Shown here piece after piece: positions 9,240 through 61,559 of a stretch of 64,000 bases of DNA. How positions within the stretch are numbered: position 1 is the stretch's first letter; every line of letters begins with the position of its first letter. The notes under the pieces were generated by a model, which saw only the letters and a program-made list of their open reading frames with translations, searched no databases and had not been told where the DNA came from. A program made the position numbers and the translations under genes. The stretch spans positions 145,967 to 209,966 of the forward strand of contig JASKKP010000001.1 of assembly GCA_030154105.1 (NCBI GenBank), read 5' to 3'. Origin of the DNA: Bacillota bacterium. Its GTDB lineage: Bacteria; Bacillota; DTU030; DUMP01.

Positions 9240-10308
9240 ACTTCAGGAAAGGATGTTTGCTGTGGCGCAATTGGTTGGCGAGAAAACCCGCAAAGAAATC
9301 ATGGACCAGCCGGTAACTTGGAGGAGCATCATCGGGCGGCTGGAGGGGGATCTGGGTAGTGCTGCAGACTGGCTGCAGAAAAGGGCACCGGAAACCATCG
9401 TGCTCACCGGTTGCGGAAGCTCTTATTATCTCTCCCTGGCCGCCGCGGCAGCCCTGCGTGGCATGGCCGGGCAGCCGGCTCAAGGAGTTCCCGCCTCGGA
9501 GGTTTTCCTGCACCCGGAGACTACCCTGCCGGTGACCGGGCGACCGCTCGTCATCGGTGTTTCCCGGTCCGGGGAGAGCAGCGAGACGGTAATGGCGCTT
9601 TCGTATGTAAGGGGTAAGCGGCTTGGAACAACCGCCGCGCTCTCCTGCCATCCTGAAAGCAGCCTTACCCACGAGGCAGATACGGCTTGGTTGCTTCCCG
9701 AAGCTCAAGAAGAAAGCGTGGTGATGACCAAGTCGTTTTCCGGCATGCTGCTATTTTTCGACTTGCTGGCGGCCGCCCTTGGAAGACAAAAGGCCATTTT
9801 AGACGAACTGGCGTCCCTTCCTCTCCTCGCCGAGCAACTCATAGCTCGCTATGAGCAAATGGTCGTTGCTTTGGCTTCCGGCCGCACGATTAAGCGCTTT
9901 GTTTTTCTGGGGTCGGGCCCTTTCTACGGCTTAGCTTTGGAAGGAATGTTAAAGGTTAAAGAACAGGCCATTGCTTGGTCGGAGGCCTACCACTTCCTTG
10001 AGGTACGCCACGGCCCCAAATCGATTGTTGATGAAGAGACCTTGGTAGTGGCCTTTGTTTCACCGCATGCTTGGCGTTTTGAGGCTGGCGTCTTGGAAGA
10101 ACTGCAGGGCTATGGGGCGAAAGTGCTGACCCTTGGAGCGGACGATGAGGGCGGCGAATGGAATGTTGCTCTACCGAGAGGTCTGAGTCCCTTTAGCCGC
10201 GGTTTGGCGGTGATGCCGCTTGTGCAGTTGCTCGGCTACCACCACTCTATGGCGAAGGGGCTTAACCCCGATATGCCGCAGCATTTAACCCAAGTTGTCA
10301 AGCTATAA
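9217..10308 (+). CDS. agaS: AgaS-type SIS-domain sugar-phosphate isomerase/deaminase
   Basis: This protein of about 363 residues has two SIS domains. The first holds LTGCGSSYYLSLAAAAALRG and GVSRSGESSETV; the second holds FLGSGPFYGLALEGMLKVKE and EVRHGPKS. AgaS enzymes convert galactosamine-6-phosphate to tagatose-6-phosphate with release of ammonia. That fits its place with NagA, a PfkB kinase and an aldolase. No NagB-type deaminase is present, so AgaS probably does the deamination. Start is uncertain: GTG 9217 overlaps the regulator, and ATG 9253 would shorten the protein by 12 residues. A glucosamine-type substrate cannot be excluded. Confidence 0.85.
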   Translation: MFVRTKNELQERMFAVAQLVGEKTRKEIMDQPVTWRSIIGRLEGDLGSAADWLQKRAPETIVLTGCGSSYYLSLAAAAALRGMAGQPAQGVPASEVFLHPETTLPVTGRPLVIGVSRSGESSETVMALSYVRGKRLGTTAALSCHPESSLTHEADTAWLLPEAQEESVVMTKSFSGMLLFFDLLAAALGRQKAILDELASLPLLAEQLIARYEQMVVALASGRTIKRFVFLGSGPFYGLALEGMLKVKEQAIAWSEAYHFLEVRHGPKSIVDEETLVVAFVSPHAWRFEAGVLEELQGYGAKVLTLGADDEGGEWNVALPRGLSPFSRGLAVMPLVQLLGYHHSMAKGLNPDMPQHLTQVVKL

Positions 10309-36310: not shown

Positions 36311-36550
36311 TCAGTCCTGTTGTTCGGCAGGCCTTTTATCCAGCTGGGCCGGCGCCTTTTCATGGCAGTTTCCTGGCTGGTGCTGTCCGCCGTGCAGGCC
36401 GTGCATCATGAAGACGTGCATGAGCGGGCAGAGCAGGAAAAGACCGTACGGCAGGAGGCGGGCGAAGACGCTCGGCCCGGCCAGGAAGAGAGCTCCGCCA
36501 AGGATGATGGCCCCGAGGAGCAGAGGCACCAGGTAGCGGTTACGGTTCAT
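36311..36550 (-). CDS. DUF2933-type small membrane protein, His/Met-rich tail
   Basis: This 79-residue protein has two hydrophobic segments (about residues 8-25 and 31-45). The second runs into CPLMHVFMMHGLHGGQHQPG and a further Cys-His, a pattern of the DUF2933 family. The His, Met and Cys residues could bind copper or another soft metal. ATG 36550 has GGGGGT 8 bases upstream; ATG 36565 is an alternative. It has its own consensus promoter with an operator-like sequence just downstream. Function is unknown; relatives are often near metal-efflux genes, none of which lie here. Confidence 0.7.
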   Translation of the reverse strand: MNRNRYLVPLLLGAIILGGALFLAGPSVFARLLPYGLFLLCPLMHVFMMHGLHGGQHQPGNCHEKAPAQLDKRPAEQQD

Positions 36551-36573
36551 CGTTTCTACCCCCATTCGGCTGC

Positions 36574-36598
36574 TCAAATACCCATACCATCTAGGGGT
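36574..36598 (-). promoter_or_regulatory. CsoR-like operator in front of the DUF2933 gene
   Basis: Read on the plus strand, ATACCCATACCATCTAGGGG and the following TAGTAT form a G-tract palindrome-like site (ATACC ... GGGGTA) similar to CsoR-family operators. It overlaps the start region and -10 box, where a repressor would block transcription. Assignment is by pattern only. Confidence 0.4.
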
Positions 36599-36627: not shown

Positions 36628-36673
36628 GGGATAGCGGCGCCTCCTCGCTTTTTAAAATGCCGCACCAATTAGT

Positions 36674-37807
36674 TTATCGGATCGCTGCCCGGATGTCTTC
36701 TTTTAGATCCTCCACATTTTCTATGCCGACGGAAAGCCGCACCAGAGCCTTTTTTATTCCTCGCCTTTCGCGTTCCTCTTCAGGTATGGAGGCATGGGTC
36801 ATAAGAGAGGGTATGCTGATAAGGCTTTCCACCGCTCCCAGGCTTTCGGCCAGGGTTATGAGCTTCAAATTGCGTACCATCCGTTCTGCCAGTTCTTCCG
36901 ACTCGAGCTCAAAGGAGATCATGCCTCCGAATCCGCCGGCCTGACTTTTGTGAAGGTCATGGCCCGGGTGTTCCGGAAGGCCGGGGTAATAGACTTTTTT
37001 GACCTGGGGGAGGGTCTTAAGCCACCGGGCGAGTTCCTGTGCGTTCTTTTCGTGGCGTTCCATCCGGATTCCCAGCGTTTTTATACCCCTCATCAACAGC
37101 CACGAATCGAAGGGACCCAAAACGCCGCCGGTGGCGTTCTGAATGAAGTGAAGCTGCTCCGCCAACCTGCCGTCCTTCACTGCTGCCAGGCCAGCTACCA
37201 CGTCGCTGTGCCCGCCGAGATATTTCGTGGCGCTGTGGACCACGATGTCGGCCCCGAGCGTCAGCGGCTTCTGCCAATAAGGCGTCATGAAGGTGTTGTC
37301 GACGACGAGCAGAAAGTTGCGGGGTTTGCAGAATTGGGCCACGGCCCTTATATCGGTTATCCTGAGCAGGGGATTGGTAGGCGTTTCAATAAATACGGCC
37401 CGGGTATTCTTCCTGATGGCTTTTTCTATATTTGACACCTCCGAGGTATCCACGTAAGAAACCTCAAGGCCCGACCTAGAAAAGACTTTACTCAGCACCC
37501 GGTAGGTTCCGCCGTAAACGTCCTCGGAGACCACCAGGTGATCTCCAGCGGAAAAAAGAGAGAGAACTGCCGAAATGGCGGCCATTCCCGAAGAAAAGGC
37601 AAATCCCCTTACGCCTTCTTCAAGGGAAGCTACTATGTTTTCCAGAGCTTCTCTAGTCGGGTTGCCGGTTCGGGAATATTCGTATCCCTTGTGTACCCCA
37701 GGGCTTTCCTGCTTGAAAGTAGAGGTCTGATAAATGGGGTAGCTTACGGCCCCGGTCTTTATATCTACCTCGAAACCGGTATGGAGGACTTTTGTATCGG
37801 GCTTCAC
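36674..37807 (-). CDS. Cystathionine gamma-lyase / gamma-synthase family PLP enzyme (MccB/MetB-like)
   Basis: This 377-residue Cys/Met-metabolism enzyme has YEYSRTGNPTREALE, FSSGMAAISAVLSLF and VDNTFMTPYWQKPLTLGAD. The PLP lysine is in VHSATKYLGGHSDV, and the tail SLGAVESLISIPSLMTHASI is typical. Family members cleave cystathionine to cysteine or condense homoserine esters with cysteine. The gene directly upstream resembles MccA, so the pair probably performs reverse transsulfuration (homocysteine to cysteine). GTG 37807 is 8 bases after AAGGAGGAA. It is last in the corrinoid methyltransferase operon, two bases after the MccA-like stop. Confidence 0.88.
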   Translation of the reverse strand: MKPDTKVLHTGFEVDIKTGAVSYPIYQTSTFKQESPGVHKGYEYSRTGNPTREALENIVASLEEGVRGFAFSSGMAAISAVLSLFSAGDHLVVSEDVYGGTYRVLSKVFSRSGLEVSYVDTSEVSNIEKAIRKNTRAVFIETPTNPLLRITDIRAVAQFCKPRNFLLVVDNTFMTPYWQKPLTLGADIVVHSATKYLGGHSDVVAGLAAVKDGRLAEQLHFIQNATGGVLGPFDSWLLMRGIKTLGIRMERHEKNAQELARWLKTLPQVKKVYYPGLPEHPGHDLHKSQAGGFGGMISFELESEELAERMVRNLKLITLAESLGAVESLISIPSLMTHASIPEEERERRGIKKALVRLSVGIENVEDLKEDIRAAIR

Positions 37808-37809
37808 GG

Positions 37810-38739
37810 TTAAATTCCTCCTTGGTAAATTTTCTTGCTCAAGTACCTTTCGCTGCCGTCGGGAAAGATGGTCACGATGCTGGCCGGACCTTTGATTCTT
37901 TTGGCGATCTGATAGGCTGCAAAAAAGGCCGCTCCCGAGGAACTGCCCACCAGCACCCCTTCCCTCCGGGCAAGTTCCTTGACCATTAAAAAGGCATCTT
38001 CGTCCCTGACGGTGACCACTTCATCGATTAAGCCCACGTCCAGGGTTTTCGGTATAAATTCCACACCGATTCCCTCGGTCTTATGCGGTCCTTTCGGACC
38101 TCCGCCGAGGATCGATCCCTCCGGCTCTACGGCTACGGCTTTTACCGCCGAATTTTTCTCCTTAAGGTAGCGGGCTACGCCGGAAAAGGTGCCGCCGCTT
38201 CCCACCCCGGCCACGAAATAGTCTATCTTCCCTCTAAGCTGCTCGTAAATTTCCGGGCCGGTGGTACTGTAGTGGGCCAGGGGGTTAGCCCGGTTTTCGA
38301 ATTGGTTCGGTATATAGGCTCCATCTATTTGCCGGGCAAGTTCCAGGGCTTTCTCAATGGCGCCCTCCATGCCTGCCTCAGTAGGGGTGTGAACGATTTC
38401 CGCACCTAAAGCCTTCATGAGCTCTTGTTTTTCTACCGAGAATTTTTGGGGCACCACTAATACAACCCTGTACCCCTTGCCCAGGGCGGCCATAGCCAGA
38501 CCTATACCGGTGTTGCCGGCCGTAGGTTCTATTATCGTACCTCCAGGTTTTAAGAGCCCGGCTCTTTCGGCTTCTTCCAGCATGAAAATCCCTATTCTGT
38601 CCTTTACACTGCCCCCCGGGTTAAAATACTCCAGCTTGGCGTACACGTTGACCCCTTCCGGCATAGGAAAACGGGTTATTTTCAATATTGGAGTATTGCC
38701 TATGAGCTCTTTGATATCATCGACTACCGGTCCGGGCAT
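37810..38739 (-). CDS. Cysteine synthase / O-acetylserine-dependent cystathionine beta-synthase (MccA-like)
   Basis: This 309-residue fold-type II PLP enzyme has the PLP lysine in NPGGSVKDRIG, the phosphate-binding region [15 protein letters not shown], and VAGVGSGGTFSGVARYL. Together with the MccB-like gene it resembles the Bacillus mccA-mccB pair. There, MccA joins O-acetylserine and homocysteine to cystathionine. A plain O-acetylserine sulfhydrylase role remains possible. ATG 38739 follows AGGAGGCAAGGAAA. It is clearly distinct from the second paralogue at 44362-45288, which is under cysteine T-box control. Confidence 0.87.
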   Translation of the reverse strand: MPGPVVDDIKELIGNTPILKITRFPMPEGVNVYAKLEYFNPGGSVKDRIGIFMLEEAERAGLLKPGGTIIEPTAGNTGIGLAMAALGKGYRVVLVVPQKFSVEKQELMKALGAEIVHTPTEAGMEGAIEKALELARQIDGAYIPNQFENRANPLAHYSTTGPEIYEQLRGKIDYFVAGVGSGGTFSGVARYLKEKNSAVKAVAVEPEGSILGGGPKGPHKTEGIGVEFIPKTLDVGLIDEVVTVRDEDAFLMVKELARREGVLVGSSSGAAFFAAYQIAKRIKGPASIVTIFPDGSERYLSKKIYQGGI

Positions 38740-38761
38740 TTTCCTTGCCTCCTTTGTCGTC

Positions 38762-39781
38762 CTATTTCGTGGCGAGCCCGTGGCCGACATCTAAGAATGT
38801 CTTTATATTTTCAAGAGGTGTATCCGGCGATATTTCGCAGCCGGGCATCAACAGAAACCTGCGGTTACCGGCTTTCTCCATACACTCTAGGGCCTTCCTT
38901 TCTACTTCCTCCCTGCTGCCGTATTCCATCACTTGCGACGGGTCCACGTTGCCGGCAAGGCAAATCCTTTGGCCTAAAATTTCTCCGGCTTTTTCCAAGT
39001 CCACCTTGTGGTCGACCGACATTATGTCCGGCTCGATTTCCCTGATCAGATCAAGGCGATCAGCGGTATCCCCGCAGATGTGGAGTAGGACCGGGGTTCC
39101 AAGCCTCTTGATCTCCGCCACAATCTTTTTGAGGTATGGGTAAACGTACCTTTCGAAGTGTTTCCGGGATATGAGGTCGCCGGAAGCCACGGGGTCTGAA
39201 ACATAGATCATCTCCGCGCCGCTTTCTACAAACGGGAGCCCGTACGCCAAGAATATTTCCGTAGATATTTCCAAGAGCTCGAACACAAATCTTTCATCCC
39301 TGTACAAAAGTCTCATGAAATTTTCAGAACCCACCATCTGGGCAGCCTGAGTGAAAGGCGCCCTGATATTTACCGCCACCATTGCTCTGTCCCTTAAGAT
39401 CCGCTTTAATTCGACGGACGCCTGCCGGAGCTGATTCACCCTCGCATCACTGGCTATTTTCTTAAGGTCCAGCTCCTTGAGATCATCCCTGTCCTCTACC
39501 AGAGGCGCTTCGGCAAAAGGTGCCCCCTTTTCGGGGAATTCAAACCTGCCCCCCAGGACCATCAGAGGCACGCTGGTGAGGCCCGCCAGAAAGAAGAATA
39601 TATCCGAATCGATATTTTGCGCTTCTTCGGCGACGACGGGCAACAGCCCTTCAGGATCTTCCAGCAAGCTCTTGATGCCGTACCCTCTACGGTTTAAGGC
39701 CCAGAACTCGGTGGCGAAAACGGAACAGGCCCGAACCCGGGCGCCCTTTAGCAGCTTTAAGACCCGCTGTCTTCCTTCCAT
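38762..39781 (-). CDS. URO-D superfamily methyltransferase (MtaA/CmuA-like), copy C
   Basis: This 339-residue protein of the uroporphyrinogen decarboxylase superfamily has the zinc-thiolate pattern HxC...C of methylcorrinoid methyltransferases. LLHICGD lies near residue 240 and LMPGCEIS near residue 315. Such enzymes move methyl groups between corrinoid proteins and thiol or folate acceptors. There are no heme-synthesis genes nearby, which argues against true HemE. It overlaps the RACE gene by 25 bases and precedes the MccA-like gene. Acceptor and donor are unknown; homocysteine or coenzyme-like thiols are candidates by context. Confidence 0.82.
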   Translation of the reverse strand: MEGRQRVLKLLKGARVRACSVFATEFWALNRRGYGIKSLLEDPEGLLPVVAEEAQNIDSDIFFFLAGLTSVPLMVLGGRFEFPEKGAPFAEAPLVEDRDDLKELDLKKIASDARVNQLRQASVELKRILRDRAMVAVNIRAPFTQAAQMVGSENFMRLLYRDERFVFELLEISTEIFLAYGLPFVESGAEMIYVSDPVASGDLISRKHFERYVYPYLKKIVAEIKRLGTPVLLHICGDTADRLDLIREIEPDIMSVDHKVDLEKAGEILGQRICLAGNVDPSQVMEYGSREEVERKALECMEKAGNRRFLLMPGCEISPDTPLENIKTFLDVGHGLATK

Positions 39782-41601
39782 GGCCGATCTCCTTCCGGAA
39801 ATCTCAAACTTCTTGCAAACAGGCCGTCAAAACCTTCCAGCGTGGAAAGCTCCAGGTACCTCACCCTGCTGGCAATATTCTCGGCTTCTTTTCTCTTGGC
39901 TCCGGAAAACAGGCAGAGCGTGGCCCCGGCTATAGAAGTGTTTCCTGCGAACGTGAGGCGTTCCGTCCATTCCCCGGCTATCATGCCTATCCGCGAGAGG
40001 CTTTCGGGGCGCAGGTGTGCACCAAAAGCTCCTGCCACGTAGACCCGGCGTACGTCCTTCAGGGAAATTCCTTTTTTCTCGAGCAACGCCCTTATGCCGG
40101 CCCAGATGGCCCCTTTCGCCAGCTGCACCTGGCGGATGTCCCGGGAGGTGATGAAAACATCGTCCTGCGGTTCATGACCGTAAGCGATGACGAAAGCGGT
40201 TGATCCTTCTTTTTCAACCAGGCGGGCCGCCAGGTTCGGACCGGCGATTTGCTGCGCTTTAGCTGGGGATACCATTTTGCCGCTGGGCTCCACAAAACCG
40301 ATTTTCAACAGTTCCGCCACCAGGTCTACTATGCCGCTGCCGCATACCCCTTTAGGCTTGTCATCGCCGATCGTCCTGATAAACACATCTTCGCCTATTC
40401 TAACCTCTTCGACGGCGCCGTCGGCCGCCTTCATCCCGCAGCTGATGTTACCACCTTCCAGGGCAGGTCCTGCGGCGCATGAACAGGCTACCATTTCGCG
40501 GCCGTCAAAGAGCACTATCTCCCCGTTGGTACCGATGTCCACGAGCAGGGCGGCTCCATCTTCCTCGTAGATCTGACTGGCGAGAATCCCGGCCACTATA
40601 TCTCCACCAACATACCCGGAAATTGCGGGCAGGCAGTAAATCCTGCCGAAGGGAGAGATCCAGATCCCCAGGTCGAAAGCTTTGACGTCAATACCTCCGG
40701 CCAGAACCGGGGTATAGGGGGCAGAACCTATGGATTCGGGATTTATGCCCAGGAACAAGTGGGTCATAGTAGTATTGGCGGCCACCGCCATTTCGTAGAT
40801 GTCTTTTTTATCGATTCCTGTCTTTTGGGCGGCTTTTTCGAGCAGGCTGTTTACGCAGTCTACTATCGATTTTTGCAGCTCGGCCAGAAACGGCTCTCCC
40901 TTTTGCGCGTGGGAAATGCGGGACAGTACATCCTGGCCGAATTCTTTCTGGGGGTTTAAGGCGGAAACTACAGCTTCTTCCTTTCCGCTTAACATATTGA
41001 CCAAAGACAGAACGACCGTCGTCGTACCTATGTCGAGGGCGGCTCCATATAATTTCCCGGTTGTATCGCCCTCCTCAATGCCGACTATCCGCTCGTTTCT
41101 GATTACCGCGGTGCCTTCTTCGGGCAGCCCCCTGGCTATGGAGCGAAGTATTTCCGGCCTGCAATTTTGGTCCAAGGGGCGGCCAACGGCCAGCGTAAGT
41201 TGCTCCTCTAAAGACCGGGCGTTCGCTGCATTCCTCAGGAAAAAGCGCCGTTTTTTTACCGGCGGAGCGATGGTCAAGCCGCCCATGATGCCCCGTTCCA
41301 GCACCCTGGCCCCTTCGTCTTTGAACAGGACTTCCACTTCCACATCGGAGGCCACCTGATAAAGGCAGGCCAAACGAACGCCTTCTTTTAATTCTCGCGC
41401 CGGTATGAGCTTTATCTCTTCCTCTTTGGGAGGATGGGCTCGGGATGTTATTTTCACCCTGCATTTCCCGCAGGTGCCGCAGCCTCCGCAGGGAGAATCC
41501 ATTTTTATTCCGGCTCTTCGCAGCACTTCTTTCAAGTTTTCTCCGGCCCGGGCTTTTATTATCCTGCCGTCGGGTTTTAGAGTTATCGAGACTTCAGGCA
41601 T
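39757..41601 (-). CDS. Reductive activator of corrinoid proteins (RACE), 2Fe-2S plus DUF4445 ASKHA domain
   Basis: This 614-residue protein is a RACE/RamA-like factor that reduces inactive Co(II) corrinoid to Co(I) using ATP. Residues 1-95 form a 2Fe-2S ferredoxin domain with CGGCGTCGKCRV and a later Cys in LACLYQVA. A linker follows, then an ASKHA ATPase-type domain from about residue 190 (GAALDIGTTTVVLSLV, LVDIGTNGEIVLF, VCGSGIVDLVAELL). ATG 41601 has GGGAGGGAGAAA upstream; upstream codons extend into the previous gene. It overlaps the upstream gene by 8 bases. Its presence shows the corrinoid protein is redox-sensitive and used catalytically. Confidence 0.93.
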   Translation of the reverse strand: MPEVSITLKPDGRIIKARAGENLKEVLRRAGIKMDSPCGGCGTCGKCRVKITSRAHPPKEEEIKLIPARELKEGVRLACLYQVASDVEVEVLFKDEGARVLERGIMGGLTIAPPVKKRRFFLRNAANARSLEEQLTLAVGRPLDQNCRPEILRSIARGLPEEGTAVIRNERIVGIEEGDTTGKLYGAALDIGTTTVVLSLVNMLSGKEEAVVSALNPQKEFGQDVLSRISHAQKGEPFLAELQKSIVDCVNSLLEKAAQKTGIDKKDIYEMAVAANTTMTHLFLGINPESIGSAPYTPVLAGGIDVKAFDLGIWISPFGRIYCLPAISGYVGGDIVAGILASQIYEEDGAALLVDIGTNGEIVLFDGREMVACSCAAGPALEGGNISCGMKAADGAVEEVRIGEDVFIRTIGDDKPKGVCGSGIVDLVAELLKIGFVEPSGKMVSPAKAQQIAGPNLAARLVEKEGSTAFVIAYGHEPQDDVFITSRDIRQVQLAKGAIWAGIRALLEKKGISLKDVRRVYVAGAFGAHLRPESLSRIGMIAGEWTERLTFAGNTSIAGATLCLFSGAKRKEAENIASRVRYLELSTLEGFDGLFARSLRFPEGDRPWKEDSGS

Positions 41602-42457
41602 TTTCTCCCTCCCAATACTGGTGAAAATACCGATAGAGGGCAACCAAGTTTTCGATAGAATCCGGCGTAAAACCGCCGTCGCTGGAGAATATATAACCGC
41701 TTCCGGCAAAAAGTTCCATGACAAAGCGCATATCGGCCCGCAAAGCTCCATTGCCTTGGCCGTCAAAATGGAGATTAAAATTGCCCATAAAAGCGGCTTG
41801 GCCGGCGATAAGCCGTTTTATATCCTTTAAGGCTTCGTAATCCAAGCCGTCAAATCCGTGAAGGACGTCTACCTTAAGGGCCAGCAAATCCGGCAGGATG
41901 GGCTTTATGAATCCGTCCGAGTGAAAGAAGGCCGGTTTCCCTAGCTGGTGTATGATGTCAACCAGCTCTTTGAGTTCGGGAAATAGAAATTCCCTTAAGG
42001 CTTTCGGTGAAAACAAAGGTCCGTTTTTTCCCGCCAGATCATCCAGAATAAAGATCCCGTCCACCTCAAATTGCGCCAGCTGCTCTAAAAGGGATTCGCG
42101 CCTTTTTCTTATCTGCCCCAGGACCCGACGGTACTTTTCCGGCTCCTTTTTAATCATCCGGGCGGCCACTTCCAGGGTGAGTTCCGTAAGGCTCTGCCAG
42201 AATATACCTGGAAGGGCTGCAAGTACGAAGTAATCCGTATACATTAGAAAGTACCTCAGTTCATCCAACGCTGAGGATAAACCGTCATTTCCCGGCAAAT
42301 CAGGGTTTAAATGTACCACGACCAGGTCGGCCCCGAGGGCCCGGAGCAATCTCGCTTTGTCTTCGAGAGATAAACCTAAAAGCGCCATCTCACCACAGGG
42401 GGGCCTGTCTAAAATCTTCCTTTCCAGTGCGGCCCTTACCCTGTCTTTTTTCTTCAC
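41594..42457 (-). CDS. URO-D superfamily protein lacking zinc-ligand cysteines, copy B
   Basis: This 287-residue protein is related to uroporphyrinogen decarboxylase-type methyltransferases. Where active copies have HxCG, this one reads FFHSDGF, and the second site reads SSDGGF. The sequence has only one cysteine, near the N-terminus (RPPCGEMA), and none at the zinc positions. It may therefore be a substrate-specific MT1 component that does not need zinc-thiolate chemistry, a structural partner or a degenerate copy. GTG 42457 has GAGAGGGG upstream and lies inside copy A. Position between the two canonical partners and RACE implies a role in the same pathway. Confidence 0.75.
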   Translation of the reverse strand: MKKKDRVRAALERKILDRPPCGEMALLGLSLEDKARLLRALGADLVVVHLNPDLPGNDGLSSALDELRYFLMYTDYFVLAALPGIFWQSLTELTLEVAARMIKKEPEKYRRVLGQIRKRRESLLEQLAQFEVDGIFILDDLAGKNGPLFSPKALREFLFPELKELVDIIHQLGKPAFFHSDGFIKPILPDLLALKVDVLHGFDGLDYEALKDIKRLIAGQAAFMGNFNLHFDGQGNGALRADMRFVMELFAGSGYIFSSDGGFTPDSIENLVALYRYFHQYWEGENA

Positions 42458-43478
42458 TCGGCCCCTCTCCCTTCGCCGCTCGAACCATGGCCCGGATGTT
42501 TGCTACAGGCGTCCTCGGGCCTATGCCACAGGCAGGGGCTAAAATGCCGGCGCCTTGCTTGATGGAAGTCATTGCCGCTACCGCCACCTTTTCCGGAGTT
42601 CCTTTTTCCAGCAGATAGGAGCTCACGTTGCCCATAACGACCTTTCCGGGCAGGCTTTCCTTCACCTCGCGCAGGCTCGTAACGGCGTCGATGCTGAGGA
42701 CGGGTGATTTCAATTTGCTGAGCTCGGCCAGCACCGGCCCAAGCCTACCGCAGATGTGTACCATGGCATACCCAGAAGAGGCCTCTACCGCCTCCGTTAT
42801 TTTGTTGATATACGGTACGACTACTTCCGAAAAGGCCCTTGGTCCCAAGATCTCGCCGGTACCGCTGGGATCGGCTATATTAATTACATCCGCTCCGGCC
42901 CTCAGCATGGCTCCGGCAAAGAATATTAGGTTGTCGGTGACAAAATCGAGGAACCTCAAAGCAATCTCCGGCTTTCGCCTAAGGGCCTTGTAGAATTCCA
43001 TAGGCTCGATAAGGGAAGTGGCGAGACTTATAGGCCCGGTGATATTCCCAATAACCGGGGTCTCGGGGCAGCTTCCTTTCAATATCCGTACCGCTTCCAG
43101 CACGGTGGAAACCCGGTAGTGTTCTTCGGTTATTGACGGCAGGTTTTCCCAATCCTCAATTCTTTTCAACGGGTATTCCACTATCCGCGGCTCGGTAGAT
43201 TCGGTGCCCAGGAAGACTTTGGCGCCGAGGGCCTCGGCCTCTACCGTCATGCAGAAGGGCACGCCCACATTTTCGATTTCCCCGAGGTGCTTCACGCCCA
43301 GAGAAAGCATGGCCATTTCTTTCGGGTCGATATGGGCCTGCGGCCACCTGTGCCCTGTGGCCATCATCACCTCCAGGACCGCCATATTCATCATACCCCC
43401 GGGGCATATCGCAGGCACCCGGTCTACCGGCCTGCCTTCCAGCACGCTTATGAGCCTCGTCTTTTCGCTGACCGTCAT
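42390..43478 (-). CDS. URO-D superfamily methyltransferase (MtaA/MtbA-like), copy A
   Basis: This protein of 362 residues shows the methylcorrinoid methyltransferase pattern, with zinc ligands in MVHICGRLGP and LAPACGIGPRTPVANI. The N-terminus EKTRLISVLEGRPVDRVP and the PVIGNITGPISLATSLI strand are typical of the MtaA/MtbA group. ATG 43478 follows AAGGAGGAGGACG and overlaps the corrinoid-protein stop by four bases, so the two are translationally coupled and likely partners. Its 3' end overlaps copy B by 68 bases, with a basic tail that may be dispensable. Confidence 0.85.
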   Translation of the reverse strand: MTVSEKTRLISVLEGRPVDRVPAICPGGMMNMAVLEVMMATGHRWPQAHIDPKEMAMLSLGVKHLGEIENVGVPFCMTVEAEALGAKVFLGTESTEPRIVEYPLKRIEDWENLPSITEEHYRVSTVLEAVRILKGSCPETPVIGNITGPISLATSLIEPMEFYKALRRKPEIALRFLDFVTDNLIFFAGAMLRAGADVINIADPSGTGEILGPRAFSEVVVPYINKITEAVEASSGYAMVHICGRLGPVLAELSKLKSPVLSIDAVTSLREVKESLPGKVVMGNVSSYLLEKGTPEKVAVAAMTSIKQGAGILAPACGIGPRTPVANIRAMVRAAKGEGPSEEKRQGKGRTGKEDFRQAPLW

Positions 43479-44152
43479 CGTCCTCCTCCTTGCGACGCCT
43501 TGGCCTGTGTTATTCCGAGCATTTCTTTGGCGACCCTCACGGCGCGGGCGGCATTTTCGCCGTATCCGTCGGCACCTATGGAACTGGCAAAGCTCGGGGA
43601 TATAGGTGCGCCGCCAACCAGAACCTTTACCCTTCCCCTTAAGTTTTCTTTTTCCAGCAGATCGATGACCTTTTTCATCTCTCCCATGGTGGTCGTCATG
43701 AGGGTAGAAAGGCACAGCAAGTCGGCATTAACTTCCCTGACCTTCTCGACAAAAGCCTTGGCCGGCACATTCCTGCCCAGGTCATGCACGGAAAAACCCG
43801 ACGCTTCGAGCATTACCTTCACCAGGTTTTTCCCTATGTCATGGGTGTCCCCTTCTACCACCCCGATCACGACCGACCCAAGGTAGAGATTTTCCTCTCT
43901 TTCGATATGCGGGGTCACCACACTGAGCCCCGCGTACATGGCATCCGAGCAGAGCAGCAGTTCCGGCACGAAATACTCGTTTTCTTCAAAAAGCTTACCG
44001 GCCTGGTTCATGCCGGCTACTAGACCTTCGTTGATTATCACCAGCGGATCGATGCCGGCCGCCAGCGCTTCTTGTGTGCGTTCTGCTGTAGCTTCTTCGT
44101 CCATGGAGAGAACGCTGTTGGCAATGGCTTTTAACAATCCTTCAAATTCCAA
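43475..44152 (-). CDS. Corrinoid-binding methyltransferase protein (MtaC/MtbC/OdmC-like)
   Basis: This 225-residue protein carries the methyl group on a bound corrinoid. An N-terminal four-helix cap (residues 1-85) precedes a B12-binding Rossmann domain. The lower cobalt ligand histidine is in EGDTHDIGKNL, followed by STLMTTTMGEM and the SIGADGYGENA end, matching DxHxxG...SxL...GG. TTG 44152 is chosen, about 7 bases after GAGGGG; ATG further upstream would add a non-conserved hydrophobic piece. It is the first gene of the operon and lies below a pair of palindromic sites. No MtaB- or MttB-type substrate methyltransferase is nearby. Confidence 0.92.
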   Translation of the reverse strand: MEFEGLLKAIANSVLSMDEEATAERTQEALAAGIDPLVIINEGLVAGMNQAGKLFEENEYFVPELLLCSDAMYAGLSVVTPHIEREENLYLGSVVIGVVEGDTHDIGKNLVKVMLEASGFSVHDLGRNVPAKAFVEKVREVNADLLCLSTLMTTTMGEMKKVIDLLEKENLRGRVKVLVGGAPISPSFASSIGADGYGENAARAVRVAKEMLGITQAKASQGGGR

Positions 44153-44236
44153 AGGAGAACCCCCTCTTAATTCCAAGTATTTCAATATGAATAATAGGGT
44201 TATGGCGCGGAACATAGGTCGGGTCGTGGGCGTGGG

Positions 44237-44330
44237 GGTGACATTGTCACCCTGAAGCTCGTCTGAGAAAATACCACCTATGAGCGTGCCGGTGACATAT
44301 CAAAGACTAGTTTCGGGTGACAAAGTCACT
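44237..44330. promoter_or_regulatory. Pair of palindromic operator-like sites upstream of the corrinoid operon
   Basis: GGTGACATTGTCACC (44237-44251) and GGTGACAAAGTCACT (44316-44330) share a GTGAC-N3-GTCAC palindrome, with a half-site GGTGACAT at 44291. They lie 85-180 bases before the corrinoid-protein start in a gap with no other recognised feature. No regulator gene is adjacent, and no clear promoter was found between them. Confidence 0.6.
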
Positions 44331-44361
44331 GACGCCCTATAGGGATGAAGGTACGTTGCGC

Positions 44362-45288
44362 CTACACGTCGGCGAAAAGCGGAGTGGAGAGATACCGCTC
44401 CCCTGTATCTGGGAAGATGGCCACGATTAGCTTCCCCTTGTTCTCCGGCCGGGCGGCGAGCTTGGCGGCCGCCCAAGCGGCGGCGCCGGCCGAGATCCCG
44501 GTGAGGATGCCCTCTTCCCGGGCCAAGCGGCGGGCCATGGCGAAAGCGTCTTCGTCGGTGACGGGGATGATTTCGTCCAGAATGTCTCGGTTTAGCACCT
44601 TAGGCACGAATCCGGCGCCGATTCCTTGAATTCCATGCCTGCCTGGCGCGCCGCCGGAGAGAACGGGGGAGGCGGCCGGCTCGACGGCCACCGCCCGGAA
44701 ACCGGGTTTACGCGCCTTGATTACCTCGGCGATTCCGGTGATGGTGCCGCCTGTGCCCACTCCGGCGACGACAATGTCGACTTTACCGTCGGTATCCTGC
44801 CAGATCTCCTCCGCCGTGGTTTCTCGATGGGCGGCCGGGTTGGCGGCGTTTTCAAATTGCTGGGGAATGAAATACCGCGGGTCTTCGGCGGCCAGCTGCT
44901 GGGCGCGGGCAACGGCGCCTTTCATTCCCTCGTCGCCGGGCGTGAGGACGAGCTCGGCGCCCAAAGCCTTTAGGATTTGTTGCCGCTCGCGACTCATGGT
45001 CTCGGGCATCACCAAGACGCAGCGTATTCCGCGCGCGGCGCAGGCGAAGGCCAGCCCGATGCCGGTGTTGCCGCTGGTAGGTTCAACTACCACCGAGTCG
45101 GGGCCTAGTCTCCCGGCGCGAGCCGCCTCGTCTAACATGCGGACGGCGATGCGGTCCTTTACGCTCCCCAGCGGGTTGAAGAATTCGAGCTTAGCCGCAA
45201 CTGTAGCCCCGTCGGGCGGCACTACCCTCCTAAGGCGCACAAGCGGCGTTCGGCCGACAAGCTGGGTTATATCATCGGCAATCTTCAT
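44362..45288 (-). CDS. cysK: Cysteine synthase (O-acetylserine sulfhydrylase)
   Basis: CysK makes cysteine from O-acetylserine and sulfide. The 308-residue PLP enzyme has [10 protein letters not shown], the PLP lysine in [45 protein letters not shown] and the C-terminal [14 protein letters not shown]. It lies 102 bases downstream of cysE, and the two are probably transcribed together from the cysteine T-box leader. It is about half identical by eye to the MccA-like paralogue at 37810. ATG follows GGAGAACTGATA. Confidence 0.94.
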
Positions 45289-45390: not shown

Positions 45391-46068
45391 TTAGATGTAG
45401 TATTCCGGCTCGGCGCGACGGTGAGGCGGGCGCTCGCCGATATGCATTGGGGAGGTACCTAAGGAATTTAAGAAGGATTCCCAAGCGGCCACCCGCCGCT
45501 CCAGAAAAGCCAACCTCTCCGCCAGCGGTGCCCAGGCTTCGGCTTCGGCCAGGGCGCGCGGGCGCACGGCCCGTCCAGGTACGCCTACCACGGTAGTTCC
45601 GGGCGCAACGTCCTTGACCACTACCGCGCCCGCGCCGATTTTTGCCCCGTCGCCGATGCGGATGGGCCCCAGTATCTGTGCTCCGGCCCCGATGAAGACG
45701 TTATTACCGACCGTAGGGTGCCGTTTCCCCGTGTGTTTGCCGGTGCCTCCTAAGGTGACGCCGTGGTAAATCGTCACGTTATCGCCGATTTCGGCCGTTT
45801 CGCCGATAACGGTGCCGGCGCCGTGATCGATGAAGAGGTTTTTCCCTATCTTGGCTCCGGGATGGATTTCAATGCCGGTGAGGTGACGGCTGAGTTGGGA
45901 GACAAGCCGCGCTAAGAAACGCAGCTTCCGCTCATACAGCCAGTGGGCGATACGGTGAAAGAAAACAGCATGCAGTCCGGGATAGCAAAGGATAACCTCC
46001 GCTAGGCTGGGCCGTGCCGGGTCCCGGGCCTGGATGGCCCGCGCCAGTTGCCAGAGTTCGGCAATCAT
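45391..46068 (-). CDS. cysE: Serine O-acetyltransferase
   Basis: CysE acetylates serine with acetyl-CoA, the first step of cysteine synthesis. The 225-residue protein has a helical N-terminus, then left-handed beta-helix hexapeptide repeats ([35 protein letters not shown]). The catalytic His/Asp region [18 protein letters not shown] is present. ATG 46068 follows GGAGGAGCTCTTC. Expression is under the cysteine-specific T-box about 150 bases upstream. In many Firmicutes it sits with gltX and cysS; here it is paired with cysK alone. Confidence 0.95.
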
Positions 46069-46220: not shown

Positions 46221-46252
46221 CAAAAACCTCCGCCTCGGTCAGAGGCGGAGGT
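46221..46252 (-). terminator. T-box terminator before cysE
   Basis: On the minus strand ACCTCCGCCTC pairs with GAGGCGGAGGT around a four-base loop, followed by five T. It competes with the antiterminator formed by the T-box. Confidence 0.88.
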
Positions 46253-46484
46253 CCACTCCGCGGTTCCACTCTGCTTGGGCAATACAAGCCCCGCTCGACA
46301 AGGGGACTACCATCCCCCGCGGCTTTAACGGGCCTTCCCGGCGGCACCTACTCCTTTCGGCGCCGCGGCTCCGGGGTGCACTTCAGCCGACCTTCCTGAG
46401 GGTTGCTTCCAGCCGCCGACAACCCCTCTCTGCCAGGAAGCCTTCAGCTTACTCTACCCCGTCTCTGCCTTCTTCAGCTGGTTT
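46221..46484 (-). ncRNA. T-box leader, cysteine-specific
   Basis: On the minus strand the leader contains a stem I region (CAGAGAGGGGTTG ... GGCTGGAAG) and a specifier loop reading GAAG-TGC-ACC; TGC at 46380-46378 is a Cys codon. The T-box AGAGTGGAACCGCGGAG (46272-46256) pairs with the uncharged tRNA end. A terminator follows. Specificity fits cysE-cysK downstream. Uncharged tRNA-Cys would favour read-through. Confidence 0.93.
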
Positions 46485-46490
46485 AGTAGC

Positions 46491-46519
46491 ATTATAGCAC
46501 TACGGCACAAGTACGTCAA
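46491..46519 (-). promoter_or_regulatory. Sigma-A-type promoter of cysE-cysK
   Basis: On the minus strand TTGACG (46514-46519), a 17-base spacer and a perfect TATAAT (46491-46496). Confidence 0.88.
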
Positions 46520-49231: not shown

Positions 49232-49532
49232 CAATAAAGAGATAACTTCAATGATCGGGAAGAGTAGGCCGCGCTGACGCTTCCAGAGAGCCGGGGCGGG
49301 TGGGAATCCGGCAGCGCAAACGTCGGCCGAATGGACCCGGGAGAAGCAGATCGAAACGCGCCTTTAGCTCAGCTTGGCCGAGAGGCGCGGAGTAGTGGCT
49401 GCCGGCCGTCCGCCGTTAACCGGACAGGGTATCGGGCGTAAGCCCCGTACCCGGTGAGGGGGGCCTTTAGGGCCCAAGTAGGGTGGCACCGCGAGCAGAC
49501 CTCTCGTCCCTTTTCGGGGCGAGGGGTTTTTT
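49232..49532 (+). ncRNA. T-box leader, tryptophan-specific
   Basis: Stem I begins near 49280 (CCAGAGAGCCGGGG, GGTGGGAATCC). The specifier loop reads CGAATGGACC, with TGG (49332-49334) a Trp codon. The T-box AGGGTGGCACCGCG lies at 49480-49493. A terminator hairpin follows. The downstream gene is a TrpP-type transporter, matching the Trp codon. Confidence 0.94.
49500..49532 (+). terminator. T-box terminator before trpP
   Basis: CCTCTCGTCCC pairs with GGGGCGAGGGG (two G-U pairs) around TTTTC, followed by six T. Confidence 0.88.
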
Positions 49533-49619
49533 GTTACCCGTGGGGAGGTGAACGGCATGACGTGAAGGGCGGAGCGCGTACCGCCAATTATAGCCATTTC
49601 CGCTGGAGGAGGATTTACA

Positions 49620-50149
49620 TGAAGGTTAAAGAAATGGCCGTTACCGCCCTTTTCTTGGCCTTAGGTTTTGTGCTCCACCAAATTACGGTAGGGCTTTTGG
49701 CCGGGATGAAACCGGACTTCGTCATTACCATGCTGTTTGTTTCATTTCTCATCCTCCGCAACGCGCGCTTGACCTTGCCCGCCGGCCTGGCGGCTGGAAT
49801 CATCGCCGCCCTTACCACTTCCATGCCGGGTGGGCAACTACCGAACATCATCGATAAGCTGATAACCGCTGCGGTGGCCATGGGCATCATTAAGGCTCTG
49901 TCCGGGCACCTCAACGATTACCTGCTGGCGGCAGTCGTGGGCTTCGTCGGTACCATCGTCAGCGGCCTGGCCTTTATCAGCTCTCTGGCCGTCATTATCG
50001 GTTTGCCGGCCCCGTTCATGGCCCTCTTCGTGACCGTCGTACTTCCGACGGCGGCCATCAACACCTTCCTGACCCCCTTCCTGTACGGCATTGCCCTGGC
50101 CCCTGCGCGCTCCCTGGGCCTGGTAGGGCAAAGCAGGCATTCGGCGTAG
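49620..50149 (+). CDS. trpP: Tryptophan transporter TrpP (YhaG family)
   Basis: This 176-residue membrane protein has about five hydrophobic segments and the TrpP pattern: VKEMAVTALFLALGFVLHQI, GMKPDFVITMLFVSFLIL, and a TTSMPGGQLPNIIDKLITA loop. In Bacillus, TrpP takes up tryptophan under TRAP control. Here control is by a Trp T-box, which strongly supports the substrate. ATG 49620 follows GGAGGAGGATTTAC. The gene ends in a strong terminator and appears monocistronic. Confidence 0.92.
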
Positions 50150-57432: not shown

Positions 57433-57539
57433 CTCTTATCAAGAGTGGCGGAGGGACTGGCCCTATGAAGCCCGGCAACCAATCGGAAGCGCCCGATCCG
57501 GTGCCAAGTCCAGCAGGAGTATTCCTGAAAGATAAGAGG
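57433..57539 (+). ncRNA. SAM-I (S-box) riboswitch
   Basis: All core S-box blocks are in order: CTCTTATCAAGAGTGGCGGA, GGGACTGGCCC, ATGAAGCCCGGCAACC, CGGTGCCAAGTCC and GAAAGATAAGAG, with P1 closed by CTCTTATC/GATAAGAG. SAM binding should turn off the operon through the terminator that follows. Confidence 0.96.
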
Positions 57540-57599: not shown

Positions 57600-58259
57600 A
57601 TGCGGATTGACCGACGCGAGGTTGTGCGCTACCTGGGCCTGAGGAGCGGCAAAGAGTTGGATGCAAAGTGGAAGGAGCGGGTGGAAGAGGCGGTAGCGGA
57701 GGCGGAAGAGCTCCTCCGGCCGGCCTTGTCCTGGCGCACGTATCCGGTGGCGCAGGTTGGGGAGACCAAGATCACCCTTGCCGGGACGGAGCTCACCGTC
57801 ACCGGGCCGCGCATGGTGCGGCGCCTGGCCGGGGCGGAGAAAATTACGGCCCTCGCCGTTACCTGCGGGCCGGCGCTGGAGGAAGCGGCTGCCGCGGCTT
57901 TTGCCCGGGGAGAATATGTGCGCGGTGCCATCTTGGACGCCGCGGGCTCCGCGGCGGCGGAGGCCCTGGCCGACGAGGTGAACGATGCGGTAGCGGCCGA
58001 AGCGCAAAGCGAAGGGTACTGCCTTATTCCTCGGGTAAGCCCCGGCTATGCCGACTGGGACTTGGCGGTACAGCCACAGCTCATCAGGGCGGCGGGGGCG
58101 GAGGGGCTCGGCATCGGCCTCAGTAAGGCGCTACTTCTCATACCGAGAAAGTCGATTACGGCGGTGATTGCCTGGGTAAAGCCGCCGGGGGCAGGGGTGG
58201 GCGGCTGCCTGGCCTGCCCGCGTACAAACTGCCGTTACCGGAGGGAGGGAGAGCGGTGA
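57600..58259 (+). CDS. Stand-alone MetH reactivation (SAM-binding) domain protein
   Basis: This 219-residue protein corresponds to the C-terminal activation domain of cobalamin-dependent methionine synthase. It reads GAEKITALAVTCGPALEEAA, DAAGSAAAEALADEVNDAV, the SAM-contact stretch RVSPGYADWDL and ALLLIPRKSITAVIAWVKP. A Cys-rich end follows (GCLACPRTNCRY). It would reductively remethylate oxidised cobalamin in trans with SAM. The downstream MetH lacks this domain, so the two form a split enzyme. ATG 57600 follows GGGAGGAAAAAAG. The stop overlaps the metH start by four bases. Confidence 0.88.
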   Translation: MRIDRREVVRYLGLRSGKELDAKWKERVEEAVAEAEELLRPALSWRTYPVAQVGETKITLAGTELTVTGPRMVRRLAGAEKITALAVTCGPALEEAAAAAFARGEYVRGAILDAAGSAAAEALADEVNDAVAAEAQSEGYCLIPRVSPGYADWDLAVQPQLIRAAGAEGLGIGLSKALLLIPRKSITAVIAWVKPPGAGVGGCLACPRTNCRYRREGER

Positions 58260-60694
58260 ACTTATTTGACCTGCTGGCTGAAGGGAAAGCCGTGATCGCC
58301 GACGGGGCTATGGGAACGCTCCTTCAAGATCAAGGGCTCAAGCCGGGCGAGTGCCCGGAAAGCTGGAACCTCATCTACCCCGAGCGCGTGCAGGCCGTGC
58401 ATGCGGCCTATCTCGCCGCCGGAGCCCAGATCATCGAGACCAATACCTTCGGCGCCAATCGAGTTAAGCTCGCCGCCTGCGGGCTGGCGGCCAAGGCGCG
58501 GGAGATTAACGCGGCGGGCGTGCGCTTGGCGCGGGAGGCGGCCGGCGGGCGGGCGCTGGTGGCCGCGTCCATCGGCCCCACCGGGCGACTCTTTGCGCCC
58601 TGGGGGGACATTACTTTTGAGGAAGCATACGCCGTCTTTGCCGAGCAGGCTGAGGCCTGTGCCGCAGCCGGGGCGGACGTCCTGTGGATCGAGACCATGG
58701 GCGATCTGGCAGAGGCGCGGGCGGCGCTCCTGGCGGCGCGGGAGACCGGGCTTCCGGCGGTGGTTACCCTTACCTTCGGCGACGGTGCCCGTACGTTTAC
58801 CGGCACCGACCCCGTTACGGCCGCGGTGGTTCTCGGCCACCTGGGGGCGGCGGCAGTAGGGGCGAACTGCTCGGGCGGGCCGAAGGAACTCTGGCCGGTT
58901 CTCGCCGAAATGGCCCGGGCGACGGCCGTTCCCCTCGTGGTGCAGCCGAACGCAGGCCTGCCCCGGCTGGAGGGCGGCCGGAGCGTCTTCCCCGTAGGTC
59001 CAGAGGAGTTCGCCGCCTGGGGACGGCGCTTTCTCGAGCTGGGAGCTTTAATCCTCGGCGGCTGCTGCGGCACCACGCCGGCCCACATCCAGGCGTTGGC
59101 CGGGGCCGTGAAAGGGAGCAATGTACCCGGGCGTTCGGTTATCCCGGGCCTGGCCCTGAGCTCGCGGAGCCGCACCGTTTTCGTAGGGACCGGGCACCCG
59201 CCGCTTCTCATCGGCGAGCGCATCAATCCCACCGGCAAAAAGGCCCTGGCCGCGGCCCTAAAAGCCCGCGCCTGGGACGAGGTGGTGGCCCTGGGGCGGG
59301 CCCAGGAAGAAGAAGGGGCGCAAGCGCTGGACGTGAACGTAGGCCTTCCCGGCGGGCCGGAGCCCGAACTCCTTCAGGGTGCCGTGCGCGCGCTGGCCGC
59401 CCAACTGAGTAGCCCGCTCGTCCTCGACAGCGCCAACCCCCGGGCGCTGGCGGCGGCTCTGCCGGAGTACCCGGGGCGGGCCCTCATCAACAGCGTGAAC
59501 GGGCGACCGGAAAGCTTGGCGGCGATACTGCCGCTGGCCAAAAAGTACGGGGCGGCTGTGGTGGCCCTTACCCTAGACGAAAAGGGGATACCACCGCGGG
59601 CAGAAGAGAGGGTGGCCGTAGCCAAGAAGATCGTGGCGGCGGCAGAGAAGGCCGGCCTTTCGCGCGGGGACGTGCTGGTGGATTGCCTCACCCTGACGGC
59701 CGGGGCGGCCGAGGCCCTTCCCGAAGAGACGCTCCGGGCGGTGCGCCTCGTTAAAGACCTCGGCCTTTCTACGCTTTTGGGCGTAAGCAACGTCTCTCAC
59801 GGACTTCCCGAACGGGAGGCCATAAACAGCGCCTTTCTGGCCATGGCGCTGGCGGCCGGGCTCGACGCCGTGATCGCCAACCCGGCCAGCGCCCGCATCA
59901 AGGAAACTCTCCTCGCAGGCGCCGTGCTGACCGGGCGCGACCCGGGGGCAAAAAGGTACATTGAGATTCTGGCCGGGAAGGAGCCGGCGGGTCCAACTTC
60001 CAAGAAGGCGGCCCGGGAGGAAGGAACGGCCCGTACTCAAGAGATAAGCCTGGGGCGGGCCCTGCGCCTGGGCGAAAAAGAGACGCTCGTCAAAGGCGTG
60101 CGGCAGGCGCTTACCGCCGGGCGCGATCCCCTGGAGCTCTTAAACGCCGAGCTCCTCCCGGCCTTAAGCGCAGTAGGTGAAATGTATGCCCGGGGAGAGT
60201 ACTTTCTCCCCCAGCTTCTCCTCAGCGCCGAGGCCATGGAGGCCGCGCTTAAGCTCCTTGCGGAAGCCATCGGCACCTCTACGGTGGCCCGGGCGGGGCG
60301 CGTGGCCCTGGCCACCGTTGCCGGCGACATCCACGACATCGGGAAAAACATCGTGGCGGCGCTCCTACGGGCCAACGGCTTTCAGGTGGTGGACCTCGGC
60401 CGGGACGTTCCGGCGGAAAAGGTGGTGGCCGCGGTCAAAGACGGCGTGGATGCCGTGGGGCTAAGCGCCCTCATGACGACGACCCTGCCGAGCCTGGAAG
60501 AGACGGTACGAACGGTAAAAAAGGTCGCCCCGCACCTTCCGGTAATGGTGGGCGGGGCGGTGGTAACGGCGGAGTATGCCAAAAGCATCGGCGCCGACGG
60601 TTATGCAGCCGATGGGGTAGAAGCGGTGGCCCTGGCCCGGCGGCTCATCGCTCAGGCCAAGCGGAAGGAGGAAGCTAAGGATGGCCACGCTTAA
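58256..60694 (+). CDS. metH: Cobalamin-dependent methionine synthase, short form
   Basis: MetH moves the methyl of methyl-THF through cobalamin to homocysteine. The 812-residue protein has a homocysteine-binding barrel (residues 1-290; zinc Cys in LILGGCCGTTP). A pterin-binding barrel follows (about 310-580; INPTGKKALAAALK, DVNVGLPGG). The B12 cap and B12-binding domain (about 600-810) has the ligand His in AGDIHDIGKNIV. The activation domain of full-length MetH (about 1200 residues) is absent and is encoded by the gene before it. GTG 58256 overlaps that stop. The end overlaps metF by 14 bases. Confidence 0.95.
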   Translation: MNLFDLLAEGKAVIADGAMGTLLQDQGLKPGECPESWNLIYPERVQAVHAAYLAAGAQIIETNTFGANRVKLAACGLAAKAREINAAGVRLAREAAGGRALVAASIGPTGRLFAPWGDITFEEAYAVFAEQAEACAAAGADVLWIETMGDLAEARAALLAARETGLPAVVTLTFGDGARTFTGTDPVTAAVVLGHLGAAAVGANCSGGPKELWPVLAEMARATAVPLVVQPNAGLPRLEGGRSVFPVGPEEFAAWGRRFLELGALILGGCCGTTPAHIQALAGAVKGSNVPGRSVIPGLALSSRSRTVFVGTGHPPLLIGERINPTGKKALAAALKARAWDEVVALGRAQEEEGAQALDVNVGLPGGPEPELLQGAVRALAAQLSSPLVLDSANPRALAAALPEYPGRALINSVNGRPESLAAILPLAKKYGAAVVALTLDEKGIPPRAEERVAVAKKIVAAAEKAGLSRGDVLVDCLTLTAGAAEALPEETLRAVRLVKDLGLSTLLGVSNVSHGLPEREAINSAFLAMALAAGLDAVIANPASARIKETLLAGAVLTGRDPGAKRYIEILAGKEPAGPTSKKAAREEGTARTQEISLGRALRLGEKETLVKGVRQALTAGRDPLELLNAELLPALSAVGEMYARGEYFLPQLLLSAEAMEAALKLLAEAIGTSTVARAGRVALATVAGDIHDIGKNIVAALLRANGFQVVDLGRDVPAEKVVAAVKDGVDAVGLSALMTTTLPSLEETVRTVKKVAPHLPVMVGGAVVTAEYAKSIGADGYAADGVEAVALARRLIAQAKRKEEAKDGHA

Positions 60695-61559
60695 GGAGAA
60701 ACTGGCCCACGGCCAGTTTGTGGTGACGGTGGAACTCGACCCGCCGCGCGGGGCCGACCCGGCCCCCGTCCTGGCGCAGGCCCGGGAGCTCGCCGGGCAT
60801 GTGGATGCCGTGAACATTGCCGACTGTCCCATGGCGCGCCTCAAGATGAGCCCTATTGCCGTGGCGGCATTGGTGCAGCGGGAGCTGGGGCTTGAGACCA
60901 TCTTCCACCTCACCTGCCGCGACCGCAACCTCCTGGGCCTCCAAGCAGAACTCCTGGGCGCCTGGGCCTTGGGAGTGCGCAACATCCTGGCTTTAACCGG
61001 CGATGAGCCGGCCCGGGGCGACCACCCCCAGGCGACCGGCGTCTATGATGTGGACTCGACCGGCCTGGTGCGCATCGCCTCCGCCCTCAATGCCGGGCGG
61101 AGCCTGGCGGGGCGGGAGCTTCCGGGCACGGGCTTTCTCATCGGCGTAGTGGCCAACCCCGGGGCGAAGGACCGCGCACGCGAGCTTAAGCGCCTGGAGG
61201 AGAAGCTGGCTGCCGGCGCGCACTTTATCCAAACCCAGCCGGTCTTTGACCTGGGCCTGGCCGAGGCGTTTGCCCGGGCTGTCGAACCGTGGCGCGTTCC
61301 CGTGCTTTTCGGGCTCCTCCCGCTTACCGGCCCGAACATGGCCCGGAAGCTTGCCGAACACGTCCCCGGGATCGCCATTCCGGCAGGGGTGCTTGAGCGC
61401 CTGGCGAGGGGGCCTGCCTCCGGCCCCGCCCTCGCGCGCGAGCTCTTTGCCGAACTCGCTCCCTTAGGCGCCGGCATCCACTTCTTTCCCATGGGCCACC
61501 CCGAACGCGTTCTCGCCTGCCTGGCCGGGCAGGGCGAAGTCGCTGAGGGAGGTTTTTGA
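60681..61559 (+). CDS. metF: Methylenetetrahydrofolate reductase
   Basis: MetF reduces methylene-THF to methyl-THF, the donor for MetH and the end of the Wood-Ljungdahl methyl branch. The 292-residue FAD protein has FVVTVELDPPRG, NIADCPMARLKMSPIAVAAL, FHLTCRDRNLLGLQAELLG, ILALTGDEPARGDHPQATGV and a C-terminal HFIQTQPVFDL. Short length with no regulatory domain is typical of bacteria. ATG follows AAGGAGGAAGCTAAGG inside the metH end. No metV-type partner is adjacent. It ends 28 bases from the convergent DUF362 gene. Confidence 0.94.
   Translation: MATLKEKLAHGQFVVTVELDPPRGADPAPVLAQARELAGHVDAVNIADCPMARLKMSPIAVAALVQRELGLETIFHLTCRDRNLLGLQAELLGAWALGVRNILALTGDEPARGDHPQATGVYDVDSTGLVRIASALNAGRSLAGRELPGTGFLIGVVANPGAKDRARELKRLEEKLAAGAHFIQTQPVFDLGLAEAFARAVEPWRVPVLFGLLPLTGPNMARKLAEHVPGIAIPAGVLERLARGPASGPALARELFAELAPLGAGIHFFPMGHPERVLACLAGQGEVAEGGF

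Follow-up and report, generated by a model that had tools for sequence, protein, structure and literature searches.

The window analysed here, a 64,000-nucleotide stretch of a Bacillota bacterium genome, contains a block of seven minus-strand genes that was acquired horizontally, as a unit, from a different group of thermophilic anaerobes and that now probably belongs to a transcription unit under cysteine control. We read this block as a variant type 1 mlp gene cluster for the demethylation of methionine and/or selenomethionine, with a dedicated MccA/MccB outlet to (seleno)cysteine, a reading to which we give just short of an even chance. The methyl-removing core is already known as a kind of cluster, and MccA as one of its accessory genes, from the available text of the Kountz and Balskus 2023 preprint (PMC10418091). 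New are the fixed seven-gene unit with both MccA and MccB, the H-D-G URO-D protein in the place of Mlp1, its transfer as a whole to a place where transcription is probably controlled by cysteine and the evidence from the host against folate as methyl acceptor.

Gene content of the block

The gene order given by the sequence-only reading, with neighbours overlapping or separated by fewer than 25 bases, was borne out, the spacing being 24 bp at most. The block opens with the corrinoid protein that acts as methyl carrier (43475..44152), probably starting from the TTG at 44152, with Pfam domains B12-binding and B12-binding_2 and a score of 227 bits against TIGR02370, above the cut-off. URO-D A (42390..43478) is an MtaA-like methyltransferase with the zinc ligands H-C-C (PRK06252, 415 bits for a cut-off of 244; MtaA of PDB 4ay7, 230 bits) and its likely ATG at 43478 gives a 4 bp overlap with the stop of the corrinoid gene. 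It is followed by URO-D B (41594..42457; PF01208, E 1e-14), a short protein of 287 aa with H-D-G replacing the zinc ligands, and by RACE, the ATP-dependent reductive activator of the corrinoid protein (39757..41601, likely ATG at 41601; domains RACo_C_ter, Raco_middle and Fer2). The third methyltransferase, URO-D C (38762..39781; PF01208, 220 bits), has again H-C-C. The host genome yielded no URO-D proteins besides these three.

The last two genes code for the transsulfuration enzymes. The MccA-like protein (37810..38739, likely ATG at 38739) is of the O-acetylserine-dependent cystathionine beta-synthase type, with 403 bits to the "O-acetylserine lyase" 5xw3 and 358 bits to the cystathionine beta-synthase 5b1h, while cysteine synthases reach at most 329 bits. 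The neighbouring cysK shows the opposite pattern, its best solved relatives being all cysteine synthases. MccA also scores above cut-off with the cysteine synthase model, and sulfide is therefore a possible substrate. MccB (36674..37807) is a cystathionine gamma-lyase / homocysteine desulfhydrase (PRK07671, 617 bits for a cut-off of 594; PDB 7d7o, 515 bits), and its scores with the gamma-synthase and beta-lyase models do not reach the cut-offs.

Transfer and conservation of the block

Comparison of the junctions by BLASTN with L149 and L150 delimited an inserted segment of 7,726 bp (36630..44355, minus strand) that comprises the seven genes and a leader of about 200 bp. It lies between cysK and a native gene, and at this site the genus-mate G001 has 27 bp. 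The GC content is 0.50-0.56 in the seven genes vs 0.60-0.68 in the flanking ones. Two genus-mates have the T-box for Cys, cysE and cysK in the same neighbourhood and an empty site, and neither URO-D A (E 1e-60) nor URO-D B (E 1e-12) was found in the other members of the genus and family that were sampled. The gene annotated by eye as DUF2933 (36311-36577) was considered as an eighth transferred gene, a similar gene following mccB in the relatives, and was discarded on account of its flank-like GC and its position within the stretch that is 97% identical in G001.

The same seven genes in the same order are present in six other genomes, all Thermosediminibacterales, making seven genomes and four genera in total; a failure of the order to recur elsewhere had been set as a refutation of the sequence-only reading. 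The other carriers are L024, L029 (T. litoriperuensis), L030 (Thermovorax), L031 (Fervidicola), L032 (a MAG) and L056 (same class). Their copies adjoin rnf genes as read by eye, and in L024 and L029-L032 the block is found just downstream of an rnfCDGEAB-like cluster. Every carrier has intact genes for the corrinoid protein, URO-D A, URO-D C, MccA and MccB. RACE is disrupted in L030 (9095-9998) and L031 (within 7723-10004), and URO-D B has frameshifts or stops in L031 (within 7723-10004) and L056 (8715-9627), which keep most of the other genes; these are draft genomes that may contain errors. The dN/dS values of 0.06-0.19 in the comparison with L024 (0.07 for the corrinoid protein, compared with L030 instead) indicate purifying selection on all the block genes tested. 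Among the genomes compared, orthologs of MccA (at least 79% identity) and of MccB (at least 73%) appear in carriers only, and related non-carriers hold paralogs at about 50% identity.

Cysteine T-box and expression of the block

The sequence-only reading was right in grouping the seven genes but set the upstream limit of the unit too early, since cysK, cysE and a T-box precede the block on the same strand. A sigma-70-type promoter (TTGACG-17-TATAAT, 46491..46519, minus strand), predicted from consensus only with 11 of 12 positions matching, stands upstream of a T-box leader (46238..46474, minus strand; Rfam RF00230, 97 bits, above the gathering score) with the specifier UGC (Cys) at about 46378-46380 and a terminator-like stem of 13 pairs (46254-46224). 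The genes behind it are native to the genus: cysE (45391..46068, minus strand; TIGR01172, 244 bits, above the cut-off), the serine O-acetyltransferase that makes O-acetylserine, is 82-91% identical in the genus-mates, where it is also preceded by the T-box, and the cysteine synthase gene cysK (44362..45288, minus strand; TIGR01139, 448 bits) is 96-97% identical. The window holds a second T-box leader on the plus strand (49242-49514), which overlaps the listed start of the ORF 49454-50149.

A consensus scan found neither a minus-strand promoter nor a clear terminator in the interval between cysK and the corrinoid gene. Inside the block the terminator-like sites of the minus strand fall within genes, and are no more numerous than chance allows; further down, the only minus-strand promoters were one weak intragenic match and the promoter of the native gene that follows mccB. 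Read-through of the seven genes from the T-box promoter is therefore the default inference, and as part of this transcription unit the block would be induced by a shortage of charged tRNA-Cys. The methionine-to-cysteine operon ubiGmccBA of C. perfringens, which has a Cys T-box, provides a regulatory precedent (PMC2940859). Compared with the Thermosediminibacterales copies scanned, the T-box context is limited to this host, no T-box or other known RNA element having been detected by the Rfam scan in five of the other copies of the block.

Separate control of the seven genes is also possible, given that a pair of palindromes in the inserted spacer of 203 bp is unlikely to be there by chance. The candidate operators GTGACTTTGTCAC (44317..44329) and GTGACAATGTCAC (44238..44250), both copies of GTGACNNNGTCAC, are 79 bp apart, and two or more in the spacer occurred in 0 of 200,000 resamples. 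The palindrome was not found in the Thermosediminibacterales copies of the block. A genome-wide regulon was rejected because the genome has just one further copy, inside a coding gene (dnaB, read by eye), and three copies per 2.1 Mb are, by our own estimate, close to chance.

URO-D proteins and the methyl acceptor

A tree of 82 URO-D proteins put the three members of the block in different places. URO-D A is in one clade with homologs located in corrinoid/RACE clusters, and its score is below the cut-offs of the MtaA and MtbA equivalog models. It is probably of Mlp3 type, judging from its position in the tree and its sister relation to short H-C-C proteins rather than from named references. 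URO-D C forms a deep branch and clade of its own that groups with Mlp2-like proteins (support 86), and its AlphaFold model (pLDDT 93.5) has the URO-D/MtaA fold. Outside the block, URO-D C has its closest relatives next to what were read by eye as nitrogenase-like genes (L105 10790-14714 and L114 8273-14322), the second of these loci having cysK genes too. URO-D B belongs to a widespread uncharacterised H-D family; its AlphaFold model (pLDDT 87) is closest in fold to MtaA (TM 0.78). Relatives of URO-D B are found in 69 of 399 genomes of the phylum (E 1e-12), and those of L043-L055, from many genera, share 24-33% identity with it and have mostly H-D replacing H-C.

H-C-C is the ligand set reported for S/Se-methyltransferases in the available sections of PMC10418091. 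Two of the URO-D proteins carry this site typical of enzymes acting on thiols or selenols, which supports the earlier suggestion that a URO-D protein may be the substrate enzyme. The related suggestion of a methylated sulfur compound whose thiol is passed to MccA/MccB gains support, extended to selenium, from the H-C-C sites, from the strict association of both PLP genes with the block and from the Cys T-box context.

The transfer of the methyl group to folate, also suggested from the sequence, did not hold. None of the seven genes codes for a folate methyltransferase, and MetH is the sole pterin-binding protein found in the host genome, which is 93% complete; folate was thus judged an unlikely methyl sink in this host, and for the same reason the second H-C-C enzyme probably hands the methyl to a thiol. 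The host MetH has 812 aa and no activation domain, and RACE or another separate protein might act as its activator. A SAM riboswitch (57433-57538) precedes the short MetH and a MetF-like gene (58256-61559), so that the URO-D proteins were discarded as the methionine synthase of the cell.

Proposed pathway and alternatives

The substrate of MccA and MccB would be (seleno)homocysteine, that is, demethylated (seleno)methionine, and this is why (seleno)methionine is proposed as the substrate of the block. RACE would keep the cobalt of the corrinoid protein reduced to Co(I), one of the two H-C-C zinc enzymes (URO-D A or C) would move the methyl from (seleno)methionine to the corrinoid leaving homocysteine or selenohomocysteine, and the remaining one would unload it onto another thiol, e.g. 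sulfide. MccA would then join (seleno)homocysteine and O-acetylserine, provided by the neighbouring CysE, into (seleno)cystathionine, which MccB would split, giving (seleno)cysteine along with ammonia and 2-oxobutyrate and thereby drawing the demethylation towards its products. This scheme leaves URO-D B without a role, which counts against it. No report was found in the literature of a homolog of a block gene demethylating methionine, and the only assayed relative that we found, Mlp2 of C. ljungdahlii, methylates selenide and, weakly, sulfide according to the accessible part of PMC10418091. That the block amounts to a mobile, corrinoid-dependent and SAM-independent route from methionine or selenomethionine to cysteine or selenocysteine, the selenium version being a salvage of selenomethionine from biomass, is a serious possibility against which we would lean slightly.

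The same enzymes might work in the reverse direction, taking the methyl of a methylated S/Se compound (a product of methylthioadenosine, methylselenol or dimethyl selenide) through the corrinoid to homocysteine and so making methionine, with MccA and MccB merely draining or supplying homocysteine. Methyl salvage of this kind is the scheme put forward for type 1 mlp clusters, homocysteine as a thiol would suit an H-C-C enzyme as acceptor, and URO-D C is sister to proteins encoded beside nitrogenase-like genes, which are markers of methionine salvage (PMC10418091, available text). Against this, the host needs no second methionine synthase because it has MetH and MetF behind the SAM riboswitch, its unit is wired to cysteine rather than to methionine, and reverse transsulfuration consumes the homocysteine while both of its genes strictly track the block; we consider this direction rather unlikely. 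Small methyl chalcogens as substrates (methanethiol, dimethyl sulfide, methylselenol or dimethyl selenide) would yield sulfide or selenide, from which MccA could make cysteine or selenocysteine with O-acetylserine, and MccB would take care of side products. The adjacent cysK would make a second sulfide enzyme redundant, the gamma-lyase would be superfluous and the closest solved relatives of MccA are the O-acetylserine lyase and cystathionine beta-synthases, all of which makes this quite improbable, even if the C. ljungdahlii Mlp2 acts on selenide (PMC10418091, in the sections available), related Methanococcus genes respond to selenium depletion (PMC11097638) and MccA passes the cysteine synthase model.

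An O-demethylase, in which URO-D B with its H-D-G would strip methoxy compounds and URO-D A and C would relay the methyl to thiols, leaves MccA and MccB unexplained. Furthermore, two carriers have a broken URO-D B with most of the other block genes preserved, and the published three-component demethylases use a pterin acceptor, for which the host has MetH only. We regard it as highly improbable in spite of the carboxylate or absent ligands described for O-demethylases of the UroD family in the available part of PMC10418091 and of the functioning without zinc of CdmB and a Moorella O-demethylase (PMC13222342).

Relation to described systems

The yrrT-mtnN-mccA-mccB genes of B. subtilis follow the same methionine-to-cysteine logic as the demethylation of (seleno)methionine proposed here. 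So does the Clostridium ubiG-mccB-mccA (PMC2940859), with MccA and MccB after a methyl-removing step, a Cys T-box and the sequence methionine, homocysteine, cysteine. Both make homocysteine through SAM, SAH and S-ribosylhomocysteine, whereas here the corrinoid methyltransferases would make it directly.

The sequence-only reading knew of no described system of this make-up, but the type 1 mlp clusters come close. According to the available text of the preprint (PMC10418091), these are found in anaerobic Firmicutes and combine two or more H-C-C proteins of the UroD family with RACE and a corrinoid protein, without a folate methyltransferase; MccA, CysK and MetB are among their accessory genes, and methyl-selenium recycling or methionine salvage has been proposed for them. 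The preprint notes a lack of conserved synteny, whereas the block has a fixed seven-gene order. It differs also in that it ends with the genes for MccA and MccB together, has a URO-D B of the H-D-G family in the place of Mlp1 and a URO-D C that branches deeply near Mlp2, and is inserted behind a Cys T-box. On the question of what the widespread type 1 mlp clusters act on, the version locked to MccA/MccB points to (seleno)homocysteine as the likely product and hence to the likely substrate, so that a small set of compounds, tried on cultured strains, could test it. If this is true, anaerobes convert methionine to cysteine without SAM, or recover selenium from selenomethionine, by a route missed by current pathway annotation. 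The parts are ordinary, and it is their combination that narrows the question.

SdmABC of Methanococcus resembles the block in using a corrinoid protein and UroD-type methyltransferases, in that case for methyl-selenium and induced by selenium depletion, but it is archaeal, with coenzyme M as the named acceptor and no transsulfuration genes named in the accessible text of the sources (PMC11097638, PMC10418091). The coenzyme M methyltransferases MtsA, MtaA and MtbA share the URO-D fold and the H-C-C zinc site, and URO-D A matches MtaA; they come from methanogens, while the carriers of the block are bacteria. The three-component O-demethylases of the MtvB/VdmB/MtoB type have a cognate methylcorrinoid:folate methyltransferase that is absent from the block, and the genome has only MetH.

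Sulfur and selenium

The T-box favours cysteine supply, and sulfur and selenium may both be used. A selD with an in-frame TGA was found in all seven carriers. Its presence was discarded as proof of selenium use since selD was found in all the genomes first compared, carriers or not. In a broader set, the five genomes that lack selD are all in the other URO-D A clade, and this split (7/7 vs 8/13 between the clades, p = 0.11) weakly favours a link with selenium. In the host, selD (L062 14356-17065) has as its neighbours, read by eye, a yedF-like gene and a LysR-type regulator, a setting that has been described in bacteria that use selenium.
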